Below are positions 34,528 to 40,938 of a stretch of 61,607 nt of DNA, piece by piece. The notes beneath the pieces are model-generated. The model ran no database searches. It worked only from the letters and a program-made list of their open reading frames with translations, and was not told the origin of the DNA. The position numbers and the translations under genes are program-made. Positions within the stretch are counted from its first letter, which is position 1. Each line of letters starts with the position of its first letter. The stretch is from Acidobacteriota bacterium (GTDB taxonomy: Bacteria; Acidobacteriota; UBA6911), in contig JAAYAM010000017.1 of the NCBI GenBank assembly GCA_012719355.1, forward strand, positions 1 to 61,607, read 5' to 3'.

Positions 34528-35901
34528 ATGCGCTTTAAGGGTACTCTCGTATTGCTGATTGTCGGCCTTGCTCTCGGAGCATACGTCTACTTTTATGAGA
34601 TAGGGGGCGGAGAACAGCGCGAGAAGGCAAAACAGGCTGAAAAGCAGGTCTGGAAACTGGAAAGCAGCGACATCAGCCGGGTTGACCTTGTGTCGGCAGA
34701 GGAACACATCACTGTGGTCAGGAAAGGCGAGGATGAATGGACCCTGACCGCGCCACGGTCCTACGAGGCGGATACGGACGAAATGGAGCGTCTGGCAATC
34801 GCCGCTTCAAACATCCTGCGCGAGAACATCATAGAGGAAAATGCATCAAGCCTAGGCCAGTTCGGGCTCGATCCTGCTCAATCGAGCCTCAAGGTCTCAA
34901 CCATAGACGGCAAGGAGTATGGAATCGATTTTGGACACCGCAATCCAACCGGTAATTCCGTGTATGCCGCGCTCCCGGGCAAAAAAGAGGTGTTTCTGGT
35001 TTCGAGTGCGGTTGCGGAGACATTTGAGAAAAAGACCAACGAACTGCGAAATCAGCGAGTCCTGAAGTTCAAACAGCCTGAGGTTGAGTCATTGAGCCTG
35101 AAGAGCCCGAAAGGCGATATTCAGCTGATGAAGGACGAAGACGACCAGTGGTGGCTTACGCATCCGGAAAAGGTTGCGGCCGACTCGCCTGGTATACGGG
35201 GAATTCTGAACGCGCTGTCGATGGCGAGAGTGAAGGAGTTCTTCGACAAGGTTCCAGGGGACCAGTCGAAGCCGGGATTGAATAAGCCGTTCATCGACGT
35301 CCGGCTAACCTATGGGAAAGACAAGGCAGCCAGGCATCTGTTGATCGGGGCGGAAAGATCGAGTTCCGACGGCACGGAGATGTACCTGGCAAAAGACGAA
35401 TCGAGAGAGGACCTGTTTTTCGTCGACAAGGATCTGGTCGACAAGCTCCTCAAATCGCACGCCGATGTGCGGGAAAAGGCACTCGCCACGTTCCAGCGCT
35501 GGAACGTGAATTTCATCTCTTTGACCAACAGCAAGGGATCATTCACCTTCAGGAAAACGGGCGGCGAATGGCTCGTAGGTCAGGAAGGCACCAGGAAGGC
35601 CAACTGGGAAGCCATGAACGCGATTCTCGACGCGATGGAAAAACCGGTTAACCGCTGGATCGACAAGCCGGCGCCCCTGTCCACCTATGGACTTGATAAG
35701 CCCCTTATTCGTGTAATACTTAAACAAGGCAGTCGTGTGATGGCTGACTGTTCGTTCGGCAAGGCGGATAAGGAAGGCGGGGTTTACGCCCAACTCAGAG
35801 GCGTATCAGCAGTCAAAGTAGTCGATCCCGAAGTCATAGAGGCGCTGGACAAGGGCGAACCGGATTTCGTTGAAGCGTCGACGGAGAACACGGAAAAGTA
35901 G
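34528..35901 (+). CDS. DUF4340-domain membrane-anchored protein
   Basis: 457 residues. Starts directly after the GldG stop codon. One N-terminal membrane helix (about 5-25), then two repeats of the DUF4340 fold: modules with W-x-L at about 55 (DEWTLTAP), 205 (DQWWLTHP) and 345 (GEWLVG), alternating with sections such as GLDKPLIRVILK. DUF4340 genes regularly close GldF/GldG-type ABC operons, as here; the molecular role is unknown. Likely periplasmic, anchored in the inner membrane. Confidence 0.85.
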   Translation: MRFKGTLVLLIVGLALGAYVYFYEIGGGEQREKAKQAEKQVWKLESSDISRVDLVSAEEHITVVRKGEDEWTLTAPRSYEADTDEMERLAIAASNILRENIIEENASSLGQFGLDPAQSSLKVSTIDGKEYGIDFGHRNPTGNSVYAALPGKKEVFLVSSAVAETFEKKTNELRNQRVLKFKQPEVESLSLKSPKGDIQLMKDEDDQWWLTHPEKVAADSPGIRGILNALSMARVKEFFDKVPGDQSKPGLNKPFIDVRLTYGKDKAARHLLIGAERSSSDGTEMYLAKDESREDLFFVDKDLVDKLLKSHADVREKALATFQRWNVNFISLTNSKGSFTFRKTGGEWLVGQEGTRKANWEAMNAILDAMEKPVNRWIDKPAPLSTYGLDKPLIRVILKQGSRVMADCSFGKADKEGGVYAQLRGVSAVKVVDPEVIEALDKGEPDFVEASTENTEK

Positions 35902-35937
35902 CCAGTGTCCCCGGCAACTGCCGAACTGTCACAGGAG

Positions 35938-35966
35938 TTGCTATTTATGCAGTCGTCAGGTATACT
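35938..35966 (+). promoter_or_regulatory. sigma70 promoter of the rimP-nusA-infB operon
   Basis: TTGCTA, 17-base spacer, TATACT. Transcription would start near 35973, just before the terminator hairpin at 35987. Confidence 0.65.
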
Positions 35967-35986
35967 TCGCGGTGCTGCTTTTGTAC

Positions 35987-36012
35987 AAAGTGGGCGCATG
36001 CCCACTTTTTTT
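35987..36012 (+). terminator. intrinsic terminator/attenuator in the rimP-nusA leader
   Basis: AAAGTGGGC (35987-35995), loop GCAT, GCCCACTTT (36000-36008) and an uninterrupted seven-T tract (36006-36012). It lies between the operon promoter and the rimP start at 36029, so RNA polymerase must read through it. It could also end the DUF4340 operon. Position matches the NusA-responsive leader terminator known for the B. subtilis nusA operon. Confidence 0.85.
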
Positions 36013-36028
36013 ATTTGAGGGTTCAAAA

Positions 36029-36532
36029 ATGGCAGTTTCAGATTTGAACCAGCGCCAATCCCTGACTGGCAGGATCACTGAACTGGCAGAGCAGCTTGGG
36101 GCTTCCATAGGAATGGAAATAGTCCTGGTGGAAGTCAAGGGGGACGAAAACCGCGCAGTCGTGCGGGTCTATATTGACCAGCCCGACGGCGTTTCGCTCG
36201 ATGATTGCGAGCGATTCAGCAAGCGTTTTTCCGTCCTGCTGGACGTGGAAGACTGGATTTCGTTCAGCTATATTCTGGAAGTGTCCTCACCCGGAATTGA
36301 TCGTCCGCTGGTGAAGCAATCAGATTTTCAACGCTTTTCCGGAAAAGATGCCAGGGTTCGGACGCGGCTCCCCATAGAGGGGCGGAGGAATTTCAGGGGC
36401 AGGATTGTAAGTGCCGTTGACAACCGTGTTGAACTCGAGATCGCGTCGGGAAAACGTATTGGAATCGCGTTGACGGACATCGAAAAGGCCAACTTAATAG
36501 GTGATATAAACATGAGGCCGCAGGGGTCCTGA
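36029..36532 (+). CDS. rimP: ribosome maturation factor RimP
   Basis: 167 residues from ATG 36029, with TTTGAGGGTTC upstream; the longer frame back to 35870 runs through the terminator. The N-terminal domain has the pattern GMEIVLVEVKGDENRAVVRV and YIDQPDGVSLDDCE; the SM-like C-terminal domain has VSSPGIDRPLVK. It assists 30S subunit maturation. First gene of the nusA operon; nusA begins 4 bases after its stop. Confidence 0.95.
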   Translation: MAVSDLNQRQSLTGRITELAEQLGASIGMEIVLVEVKGDENRAVVRVYIDQPDGVSLDDCERFSKRFSVLLDVEDWISFSYILEVSSPGIDRPLVKQSDFQRFSGKDARVRTRLPIEGRRNFRGRIVSAVDNRVELEIASGKRIGIALTDIEKANLIGDINMRPQGS

Positions 36533-36536
36533 AATT

Positions 36537-38021
36537 ATGTCGAACATTATCGCTCAGACAATCGAACAGATCAGCAAAGAGAAGAACGTTGATCCCAAGA
36601 TCATCATCAGCGCGTTGGAAGACGCGATGGTGGCCGCTTCCAGAAAGTTCTATAAGACGAACGAAGACATCAACGCCAGGTTTGATCCGGAGACCGGAAT
36701 GGTGGAGATCTTCGCAGTCAGGCGCGTAGTGGAGAAAGTTGAAAATCCCAACCTGGAGATGTCGCTGAGTGAGGCCAAGGAAATAGACGAAACGCTCGAG
36801 ATCGACGATACGGTGGAAATACCGAAGCCGACAGACGTTCTGGGAAGGATAGCAGCCCAGACGGCAAAGCAGGTGATTCTGCAGAAGGTCCGCGAAGCAG
36901 AACGGCAGAACATCTACAACGAGTTTTCGGAAAAGATCGGAGAGATGGTCAACGGGATCGTGAAGCGCTTCGAAGGACCCGATATTATTGTGGATATCGG
37001 GAAGACCGAGGCACTGCTTCCGCTGCGCGAGCAGTCCAGGGCCGAAACCTACAAGCAGGGCGAGCGCGTTCGTGCCCTGATAGTAAAGGTACTTCCGGTG
37101 GCAAAGGGTCCGCAGGTCATCCTCTCCCGGACCGATCCGCAGCTGCTTGTCCGGCTGTTTGAAATGGAAATCCCGGAGATCTACGACGGAACCATTGTGG
37201 TCAAGAGCGCCGTGCATGAACCGGGTGACCGGGCCAAGGTTGCGGTGGCTTCAATGGATCGTGATGTTGATCCGGTCGGAGCCTGCGTCGGAATGAAAGG
37301 TTCGCGGATCAATTCCATAATCCGGGAGTTGAGGGGAGAGAAGATCGATATTGTCCAGTGGTCTGATGACCCTGCACAGTATGCGACGAATGCTCTGAAC
37401 CCGGCCAAGGTCTCGAAAGTCCTCATCATCGATCAGGCCGAAAAGCGGATGGAGGTAATCGTCGAAGAAAAGCAGCAATCGCTCGCTATCGGCAAAAAGG
37501 GACAGAACGTCCGGCTCGCTTCGAGGCTTATCGGATGGCAGATTGACGTCAAGAGCGAAGAGCAGAAGAAGCAGGAAGTGCTCAGCGTGATGGAGTCTCT
37601 GACGTCGTCGTCAACATCGCTGTCCGAACTCGAGGGCGTAAGCGATCGCGTCATCGAACGGTTGCGTGAATCGGGAATCGAAAACGTCGAGCGCATACTG
37701 GAACTCGGCGAGGAGAAGCTCAGAGACATCCCGGGATTCGGAGAGAAAACGGCGGCGAAGGTAATGGAGGCTGCCAGAGACCTGTTTGAAGAGGTGGAAA
37801 TCGAGGTGCCGGAAGGGATGGATTTGCCTACCGCAATCCAGGCTGCGTCCCAGGAAGAGGTAGAGGCTGAACTGGCGCAGCTGCCACAGGCAGACCAGGA
37901 AGAGGAAGAAGAAGCAGAATCCCCATCAGTCAGCGCTTCCGAAAGTGAGACCGTCAGCGAAGAAGTCTCCTCAGTACAGGAAAGTACCGAGAGTACCGAC
38001 GACGAGAACAAGCAGATCTGA
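36537..38021 (+). CDS. nusA: transcription termination/antitermination factor NusA
   Basis: 494 residues. N-terminal polymerase-binding domain (1-130), S1 domain (about 135-200; VKRFEGPDIIVDIGKTEALLP), two KH domains (about 205-345; GACVGMKGSRINSI and AIGKKGQNVRLASRL). A C-terminal helix-hairpin-helix pair follows (about 360-420; LEGVSDRVIERLRESGI, IPGFGEKTAAKVMEAA) and an acidic Glu/Ser tail of about 70 residues. Binds RNA polymerase and promotes pausing and hairpin-dependent termination; likely regulates its own operon at the leader terminator. Confidence 0.97.
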   Translation: MSNIIAQTIEQISKEKNVDPKIIISALEDAMVAASRKFYKTNEDINARFDPETGMVEIFAVRRVVEKVENPNLEMSLSEAKEIDETLEIDDTVEIPKPTDVLGRIAAQTAKQVILQKVREAERQNIYNEFSEKIGEMVNGIVKRFEGPDIIVDIGKTEALLPLREQSRAETYKQGERVRALIVKVLPVAKGPQVILSRTDPQLLVRLFEMEIPEIYDGTIVVKSAVHEPGDRAKVAVASMDRDVDPVGACVGMKGSRINSIIRELRGEKIDIVQWSDDPAQYATNALNPAKVSKVLIIDQAEKRMEVIVEEKQQSLAIGKKGQNVRLASRLIGWQIDVKSEEQKKQEVLSVMESLTSSSTSLSELEGVSDRVIERLRESGIENVERILELGEEKLRDIPGFGEKTAAKVMEAARDLFEEVEIEVPEGMDLPTAIQAASQEEVEAELAQLPQADQEEEEEAESPSVSASESETVSEEVSSVQESTESTDDENKQI

Positions 38022-38202
38022 GTTTTCTGCAGGTATGTTCCGCGGAATGAGACCGGGCGAAGCGAAATAGCCCGTCGCGTGGCGGAAATGTTCACGTCTG
38101 CAATAAGAGCTCCGTTGCAAACAGCATCGGGGTTGTTTTAAGATTCTTATTTGACTAAAATTTGATCCCCCATAGGCGGGAGTGGTAGAGGTCTTTGCGC
38201 AA

Positions 38203-40938
38203 ATGGATAAAATAACCGTCGCGGAACTGGCGACAGAATGTTCAGTAAAGAATCAGGTAGTGCTCGCTGAACTGAAGCGTCTGGGCTTGTATGTCTTTTC
38301 GCCTACCGCGACGATTGATGTGAACTTCGCCGAAACCATCCGGAAGAAGATTCTGTCGCAGCGCGAGGCCGAAGAGATCAAGGCACAGGAGGCCGAAAAG
38401 AAGAAGGCAGCCAGGGCCGAAAAGAAGCCTGCGAAGAAGGCCGCCACTCCGGCTGCACCACGCCCGGCTGCAAGAAAAGCGAGAAAAGCGCCGAAAACGA
38501 CGCAGAAAGCGGTGGAACCGGAACCGGCTCCGAAGATCTCGCTGGCTCCTCGAAAGGGACGAAAACACTACGACCGTGAAGCTGCCGAGCTCGTGGAAGA
38601 ACCAAGGCCGGTGGAAAAGCCGGCTGAGGAACCTCAGGCTCTTCAGCCTCAACCGGTTCCTGAACCGGAAGCAGCGCCGTCCGCACCTCCTGCACCCGTT
38701 CAGGAAGAACCTCCTGTAACTGCCGCGCAGGAAGAAGCTGTTCCGGAACCGGCTGCCGTCGAGCCTCCTGCGGAGGAGATACCCGCACCGGTGCAGGAAG
38801 AGCCCAAAGCTGCGGAACCGGCTGCCGAGACCCCAACACCGGCAGCGGCTTCGGCACCAACGCCGCCTGCAGAAGAAACCCAGCCCCCTGCAGCGGCTCC
38901 GGCGGGCCCGCCTGAAGCAGCAGCTCATTCGGGAACTGTCGCGAGAAAGATAGTTGTCCCGAAAGCCAGAACCAAGATACTGATGCGGACGACCACCGAG
39001 AGAGTAGTAACGCCCGAGATAACAGAGCGTATACTGAAAGGGCTGCAGGAACAGAAGCCTGCCGCGCCAAGAACTGCTCCCCCGACAAGGTTTGTCAGAA
39101 AGAAGAAGACCGGCAAGCCTGAGGTAACCGAAAGAACCGCCAAGGCGGTCGAAGTACCTCGACCACCGGCTTCCCCGGAGGATTTTAGACCTATCGCTAT
39201 TACAGAAGGTGTCACAATAAAAGAGCTTGCGGAAAAGATGAACATCAAGTCGAAGTACATCATCCAAAAGCTCATTTCGAAAGGAATCCTGGCCTCCATC
39301 AACCAGACCCTAGACATTGAAGCTGCTAAGGAAGTCTGTGCTGAATTCGGATTCCGTGCTGAAGTAATCAGCTTCGAACAAGAGGCCGAAGCAAGTCAGG
39401 AAACGCCGGACAAGCCTGAGGATTATCAGACTCGTCCTCCAGTGGTCACCGTCATGGGCCACGTAGACCACGGCAAGACGTCTCTGTTGGACGCCATCCG
39501 CCAGAGCAACGTCATCGCAACGGAGTCGGGCGGGATCACGCAGCACATCGGAGCGTACCAGGTGGACATCCGGGGCCGCAGCATCGTCTTTCTGGACACC
39601 CCGGGCCATGAAGCATTCACTCTTATGCGCGCTCGCGGGGCGCAGGCCACCGATATCGTCGTTCTGGTGGTTGCTGCGGATGACGGAGTCATGCCTCAGA
39701 CGATAGAGGCTATCCATCACGCTAAAGCGGCCAACGTGCCTATGATTGTCGCCATTAATAAGGTAGACAAACCTGGAGCTCAGATTGATCGAGTGAAACA
39801 GGCGCTTGCCGACCAGGGATTGCTCCCTGAGGATTGGGGTGGCGATGTCGTGACGGTGCCGGTGTCAGCCAAGCAGAAGACCAACATTGACCTTCTGCTG
39901 GAAATGATTCTTCTGGTCGCGGACATGAAGGAGCTGAAAGCGAATCCGAAGCGCGCGGCATCCGGTGTCGTACTCGAAGCTAAGGTAGACAGGGGACGGG
40001 GCTGCGTCGCTACCGTCCTGGTACAGAATGGAACGCTCGAAGTAGGAGATTCTGTTGTCGCAGGCTCCGTCAGCGGACGTGTACGTGCCATGGTCAATGA
40101 CCGCGGCAAGAACATCAGCACTGCTGGCCCGTCGATACCGGTGGAAATCCAGGGACTGCAGGACCTGCCGATGGCCGGCGATGCTTTCCAGGTCTTCAAG
40201 GACGCGGCAAAGGCACGGCAGGTGGCAGAGTACCGCCAGACGAAGGCAAGGGAGCAGTCGCTCACCAAGAGTGCCCGCCTGTCGCTGCAGGCGCTGTATG
40301 AACAGATGAGAGCGGGAACGGTCAAGGAGCTTCCGCTCATCGTGAAGGCCGACGTTCAGGGATCGGTGGAGGTTGTCACCGAGATGCTGAACAAGCTCAG
40401 CACGGAAAAGGCGAAAGTCAAGATCCTGCACAGCGGTGCAGGAGCGATCACGGAAACCGATGTGCTGCTCGCCTCAGCCTCCAATGCCGTCCTCATCGGG
40501 TTTAATGTCAGGCCCGAACGCAAGGCTCAGGAACTGGCAGACACCGAAGGAGTGGAAATCAGGCTCTACACGGTGATCTACAACCTGACGAATGAGATCA
40601 AGGCGGCCATGATCGGGATGCTCGAATACACGACTCACGAGAAATACGTCGGCCGGGCCGAGGTACGCGACACATTCAAGGTTCCGAAGTTCGGATTTAT
40701 CGCGGGTTCGTACGTTCTCGACGGAGTCATCCGGAGAAATGCCGAGGCACGCCTCCTGCGGGACAATGCGGTTGTACATGAGGGGAAGATAACCTCGCTG
40801 CGCCGTTTCAAGGATGACGTCGCCGAGGTGAAGTCAGGATTCGAGTGCGGCATAGGTTTCGAGCACTTTTCCGATGTCAAAGTGGGCGACATAATCGAAG
40901 CGTACGTTATAGAAAAGGTCCAACCTACCTCTCTTTAG
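38203..40938 (+). CDS. infB: translation initiation factor IF-2
   Basis: 911 residues from ATG 38203 ([13 protein letters not shown], the usual IF-2 N-domain opening); a GTG at 38182 in frame adds seven residues but its ribosome site is too close. A Pro/Ala/Glu-rich linker covers about 70-260. A second N-type domain ([18 protein letters not shown]) precedes the GTPase core: G1 [10 protein letters not shown]3 DTPGHEAF, G4 NKVDKPG. Domains II-IV follow, ending [17 protein letters not shown]. Brings initiator tRNA to the 30S subunit. ylxR and ylxQ, common between nusA and infB elsewhere, are absent. Confidence 0.96.

Follow-up and report, generated by a model that had tools for sequence, protein, structure and literature searches.

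The stretch of DNA analysed here (the window, 61.6 kb) carries an operon with the gene order rimP, nusA, infB, DUF503, rbfA and truB, as assigned by domain and family models, and a promoter and a terminator hairpin are present ahead of its first gene (Table 1). The gene upstream, a DUF4340 gene on the same strand that belongs to an ABC-transporter/GldG/DUF4340 operon, has its stop at 35901, 85 nt before the hairpin. The hairpin, AAAGTGGGC-GCAT-GCCCACTTT, spans 35987-36008 with nine perfect pairs and a calculated fold of -13.6 kcal/mol. It begins 20 nt 3' of the -10 box and ends 20 nt 5' of the rimP ATG, and the first three residues of the T-run at 36006-36012 pair with the AAA of the stem. An earlier note on this DNA had described a nine-pair hairpin and seven T following a promoter and preceding the rimP start, all of which are found in the sequence where it had put them; its end coordinate, 36031, is the G of the rimP ATG.

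Table 1. Features of the rimP-nusA-infB leader and operon (window positions)
Feature	Position	Strand	Basis
Sigma-70-type promoter TTGCTA-17-TATACT of the rimP-nusA-infB operon	35938..35966	+	sequence, pattern scan, relatives
Predicted start (about 35973-35974) and very short leader GCTGCTTTTGTAC	35973..35986	+	predicted from the -10 box
Intrinsic terminator: stem AAAGTGGGC/GCCCACTTT, 9 bp, loop GCAT, T7 tail; rimP-leader core GGGC...GCCC	35987..36012	+	
Shine-Dalgarno GAGGG of rimP, outside the hairpin	36017..36021	+	sequence
rimP, ribosome maturation factor, first gene of the operon	36029..36532	+	PF02576 and PF17384 above cut-off; RimP models
nusA, proposed source of feedback	36537..38021	+	TIGR01953, 407 bits; NusA_N, S1 and KH domains
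infB (IF-2), downstream member of the operon	38182..40938	+	PF11987, PF00009, PF04760

The sequence and a pattern scan place the -35 box of the promoter at 35938-35943 and its -10 box at 35961-35966, with a spacer of 17 nt. By itself the promoter is unremarkable, matching the consensus at 9/12 positions, and 12 such promoters were found in 15 kb against 5.9 expected. Although weak by match alone, it is supported by its conservation at fixed spacing in eight close relatives, the window counted. In this set, phylogenetic footprinting by anchored comparison showed TTGCTATTT to be 100% identical in 8/8, and GTATACTT to be present in 8/8 with identical spacing. The promoter spacer is only 51% identical among the eight, and the DNA just 5' of the promoter shows 27% identity. 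The earlier suggestion of a 17-spaced promoter ahead of rimP is therefore confirmed by sequence, pattern scan and footprint alike. The interval from the hairpin to rimP is too short to hold a promoter, and consequently an operon transcript from this promoter must, as had been proposed, read through the hairpin.

Transcription is predicted to start at about 35973-35974, approximately 14 nt 5' of the hairpin. Around this predicted start the element GCTGCTTT has a mean identity of 95% in close relatives. It lies at 35974-35981 in the window, and more distant Acidobacteriota (L101, L143) have a similar GCTGCTTTCG; candidate roles are a start-region element or pairing of its CTTT with the AAAG at the stem base. 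Across the phylum, -10-like boxes are enriched near the hairpin core (47/81 leaders vs 12.4 shuffled), and recognisable -10 boxes lie mostly 10-35 nt 5' of the core, suggesting that very short leaders are common in Acidobacteriota and that polymerase meets the stop signal after about 40 nt of RNA.

When hairpins were required to have eight or more stem pairs and six or more T in seven, this was the sole one on either strand of the window, and the same criteria gave one match altogether in ten dinucleotide-shuffled copies of the full window. Footprinting showed the stem and T-run to be 96% identical among the eight close relatives, at the same spacing. When the leader was folded, no competing structure that lay within 6 kcal/mol of the optimum abolished the terminator, a result that suits a polymerase-directed factor better than a riboswitch. 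Strong intrinsic terminators are thus very rare in the window, with one perfect stem of at least 8 bp. Relaxing the stem to at least 7 bp, with at least six T in seven, yields three, two of which lie opposite the genes' strand or at gene edges; this rarity suggests that the lineage ends most transcripts in some other way. The DUF4340 gene itself contains a perfect 9-bp palindrome, CACGTTCCAGCGCTGGAACGTG (35487-35508), that no proper T-run follows.

Conservation of the hairpin before rimP in relatives, which the earlier note had named as a check, was found in 8/8 close relatives and, across the phylum, as a strong hairpin with a T-run in 108/121 distinct Acidobacteriota rimP leaders. The controls gave 12/357 random stretches of the same loci and 1-4/121 shuffled leaders. 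The relatives compared include metagenome bins, and 13/121 leaders are without such a hairpin and T-run by the criteria used. The upstream gene encodes DUF4340 within the close group only. Elsewhere it encodes an M16 peptidase, Lon, a radical-SAM/TRAM protein, a glycosyltransferase, GcvT, a methyltransferase or a TPR protein, with the hairpin retained, and in L015 the hairpin is still present although the upstream Lon gene lies on the opposite strand. Persistence of the hairpin beside a changed or divergent upstream gene argues that it belongs to rimP-nusA and not to the upstream operon. The terminator between the promoter and the nusA operon is therefore inherited independently of the upstream gene. 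It would nonetheless also block read-through from the DUF4340 operon, insulating rimP-nusA-infB. In two leaders (L004, L005), a long insert separates the terminator from rimP, and the hairpin ends 285-296 nt before the start of the RimP domain, compared with about 60-90 nt usually.

The hairpin core has the form GTGGGC(3-8)GCCCAC in most Acidobacteriota and ACGGGC(4)GCCCGT in Desulfobacterota, so that the outer stem pairs covary between the two phyla, G-C/T-A being swapped for A-T/C-G. Changes on both sides of the stem number 21 vs 4.4 in shuffled sequences, and the two pairs outside the core change together. The invariance of GGGC in the covariation set is biased because sequences were chosen by that core; among 110 unselected best hairpins, exact GGGC/GCCC occurs in 67 and GGGT/GCCC is the next commonest form. 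In L100, L104, L133, L108 and L135 the GGGC core is replaced by another G+C-rich stem (for example GCGGCCG...CGGCCGC or GGCGGCC...GGCCGCC) with T-runs at the same place, the position being kept and the core exchanged.

A covariance model built from 48 leaders returned the rimP site as the top match in its own 4.57-Mb genome (E 2.0e-6), with nothing else below E 0.08 in that whole genome, and it matched at E <= 0.1 in 32/40 related genomes. The pattern GTGGGC(2-8)GCCCAC occurs at two places in the 4.57-Mb genome, and the GGGC...GCCC core was seen in only 1/16 background hairpins, a small sample. The core was found to be specific to rimP leaders and not a property of ordinary terminators. The model also gave a weak match (E 1.0) elsewhere in the same genome, on contig C350:12797-12835 (L201:1440-1550), directly 5' of fliW (NF009793 above cut-off). 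This site has a promoter-like TCGACA-17-TACAAT and a hairpin ending in T7, and a csrA-like start lies downstream; the terminator stem might face competition from a GGATA/TATCC pairing, in the manner of a fliW-csrA attenuator.

Naville and Gautheret (2010, PMC2965389) described the rimP-leader as more widespread than any other transcription attenuator; its conserved stem is GGGc...gCCC, it has no antiterminator, and they proposed a role for NusA. As in that class, a terminator with a G-rich 5' arm, a C-rich 3' arm and a T-run lies directly before rimP-nusA-infB, 4-130 nt from the gene, and there is no larger conserved structure. The hairpin and T-run fall in the 5' UTR of the operon, AAAGTGGGC/GCCCACTTT contains the GGGc...gCCC stem core, and no antiterminator is visible. 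Unlike the published rimP-leader, the Acidobacteriota core is extended to GTGGGC...GCCCAC and the leader is usually very short; unlike some Gammaproteobacteria rimP-leaders, the Acidobacteriota version is without a second upstream terminator. With all features testable here present, the locus is, on its sequence, a very compact further case of the rimP-leader attenuator. Rfam family RF01770 (rimP) has the same position and role before rimP. Nevertheless, an Rfam scan of 35700-36200 gave chance matches only and none to the rimP family, and RF01770 run against the whole genome gave no match at the rimP locus at its gathering cut-off of 47 bits. RF01770 (102 positions) exceeded the cut-off in only 1/14 control genomes, indicating that it covers a narrow version only.

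In Bacillus subtilis, NusA is autoregulated by NusA-stimulated termination in its own 5' leader, as summarised in a review (Mondal et al. 2016, via PMC12288461). The two leaders share a promoter, a leader terminator and a rimP(ylxS)-nusA operon that is reached by read-through. They differ in length, since the B. subtilis leader is about 180 nt (cited in PMC2965389) and the hairpin here begins approximately 14 nt after the predicted start. A closer parallel in length is provided by gbs0413-gbs0418 of Streptococcus agalactiae, where RNA-seq detected a short RNA whose 3' end lies 31 nt from the start, ahead of rimP-nusA (PMC4448216). There too the leader is very short and termination precedes rimP-nusA-infB; that species belongs to another phylum, and the short RNA seen there is predicted here. 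In Escherichia coli NusA controls its own operon (PMC6511841), and the t1/t2 region of metY-rimP-nusA-infB has TGGGCTTTAGGCCC and T7 directly before rimP with a GGGC...GCCC core. Unlike the acidobacterial locus, the E. coli operon has the tRNA gene metY upstream, several promoters and an extra upstream terminator. The B. subtilis-like layout that the earlier note had proposed for NusA autoregulation, with promoter, leader terminator and rimP-nusA in that order, thus holds up. Its idea of the same layout in an apparently unrelated lineage stands for the layout only, and not as an isolated parallel, because the element is a published, widespread one (PMC2965389) that is found in nearly all Acidobacteriota examined.

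The anatomy of promoter and terminator has good support, and the locus is most probably (probability about 0.8) a rimP-leader-class attenuator at which NusA on the elongating polymerase raises termination and so limits rimP-nusA-infB. RNA polymerase would start approximately 14 nt before the hairpin and would have made about 40 nt of RNA on meeting the intrinsic terminator. Some polymerases would stop there, releasing an RNA of about 40 nt, and the rest would proceed into rimP-nusA-infB. By binding the elongating polymerase, NusA would raise termination, such that high NusA would give less expression of the operon and low NusA more. With a hairpin and T-run right after the promoter, no competing fold and a leader of about 14 nt, the simplest reading is that termination efficiency would be set by a polymerase-bound factor. 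NusA control in B. subtilis and E. coli and the short RNA of S. agalactiae make NusA the most likely effector in this lineage, by homology only. A riboswitch or T-box was considered separately and rejected, the leader of about 14 nt before the hairpin leaving no room for a ligand sensor.

It is unlikely that read-through at the attenuator is set by a different effector, such as RimP, IF2, NusG or a growth or temperature signal. Naville and Gautheret (PMC2965389) considered RimP, a protein that interacts with rRNA, other products of the operon are equally placed for feedback, and infB expression increases in the cold in E. coli; however, NusA is the product with reported control of leader termination in B. 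subtilis (PMC12288461) and with self-control in E. coli (PMC6511841). An equally unlikely variant for Acidobacteriota is a minimal attenuator whose hairpin forms within about 35-40 nt of the start, at which sigma is perhaps still bound and read-through reports the speed with which NusA replaces sigma on the polymerase. If so, the conserved GCTGCTTT at the start would belong to a timing device, and NusA would not be acting on the mature elongation complex. Somewhat less probable still is that the hairpin stabilises the mRNA at its 5' end, or acts as a pause site, and terminates little: a stable hairpin near the 5' end could protect the mRNA, and some members of the phylum have short or broken T-runs, but almost every leader keeps a T-run after the stem (positions with 70-75 T of 78), and stability alone needs none. 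The least probable reading, in which the hairpin terminates the ABC-transporter/GldG/DUF4340 operon and rimP-nusA is transcribed by unregulated leakage or from a promoter within the upstream gene, draws on the nearby same-strand DUF4340 stop with no other terminator between, but was rejected on the change of upstream neighbour, and is at odds with the conserved promoter at fixed spacing between that gene and the hairpin and with relatives whose upstream stop lies as far as 265 nt off, the hairpin remaining beside the promoter.

Attenuation by NusA thus remains the preferred reading, and the general picture of rimP-nusA attenuation is unchanged by the acidobacterial case, whose notable feature is its compactness. 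The present Rfam model is shown to miss the acidobacterial rimP leader. A known attenuator type, here with a clean footprint, is extended across an entire phylum that is for the most part uncultured, and the leader may offer a compact template, beyond model organisms, for the old proposal that NusA reads the hairpin directly.
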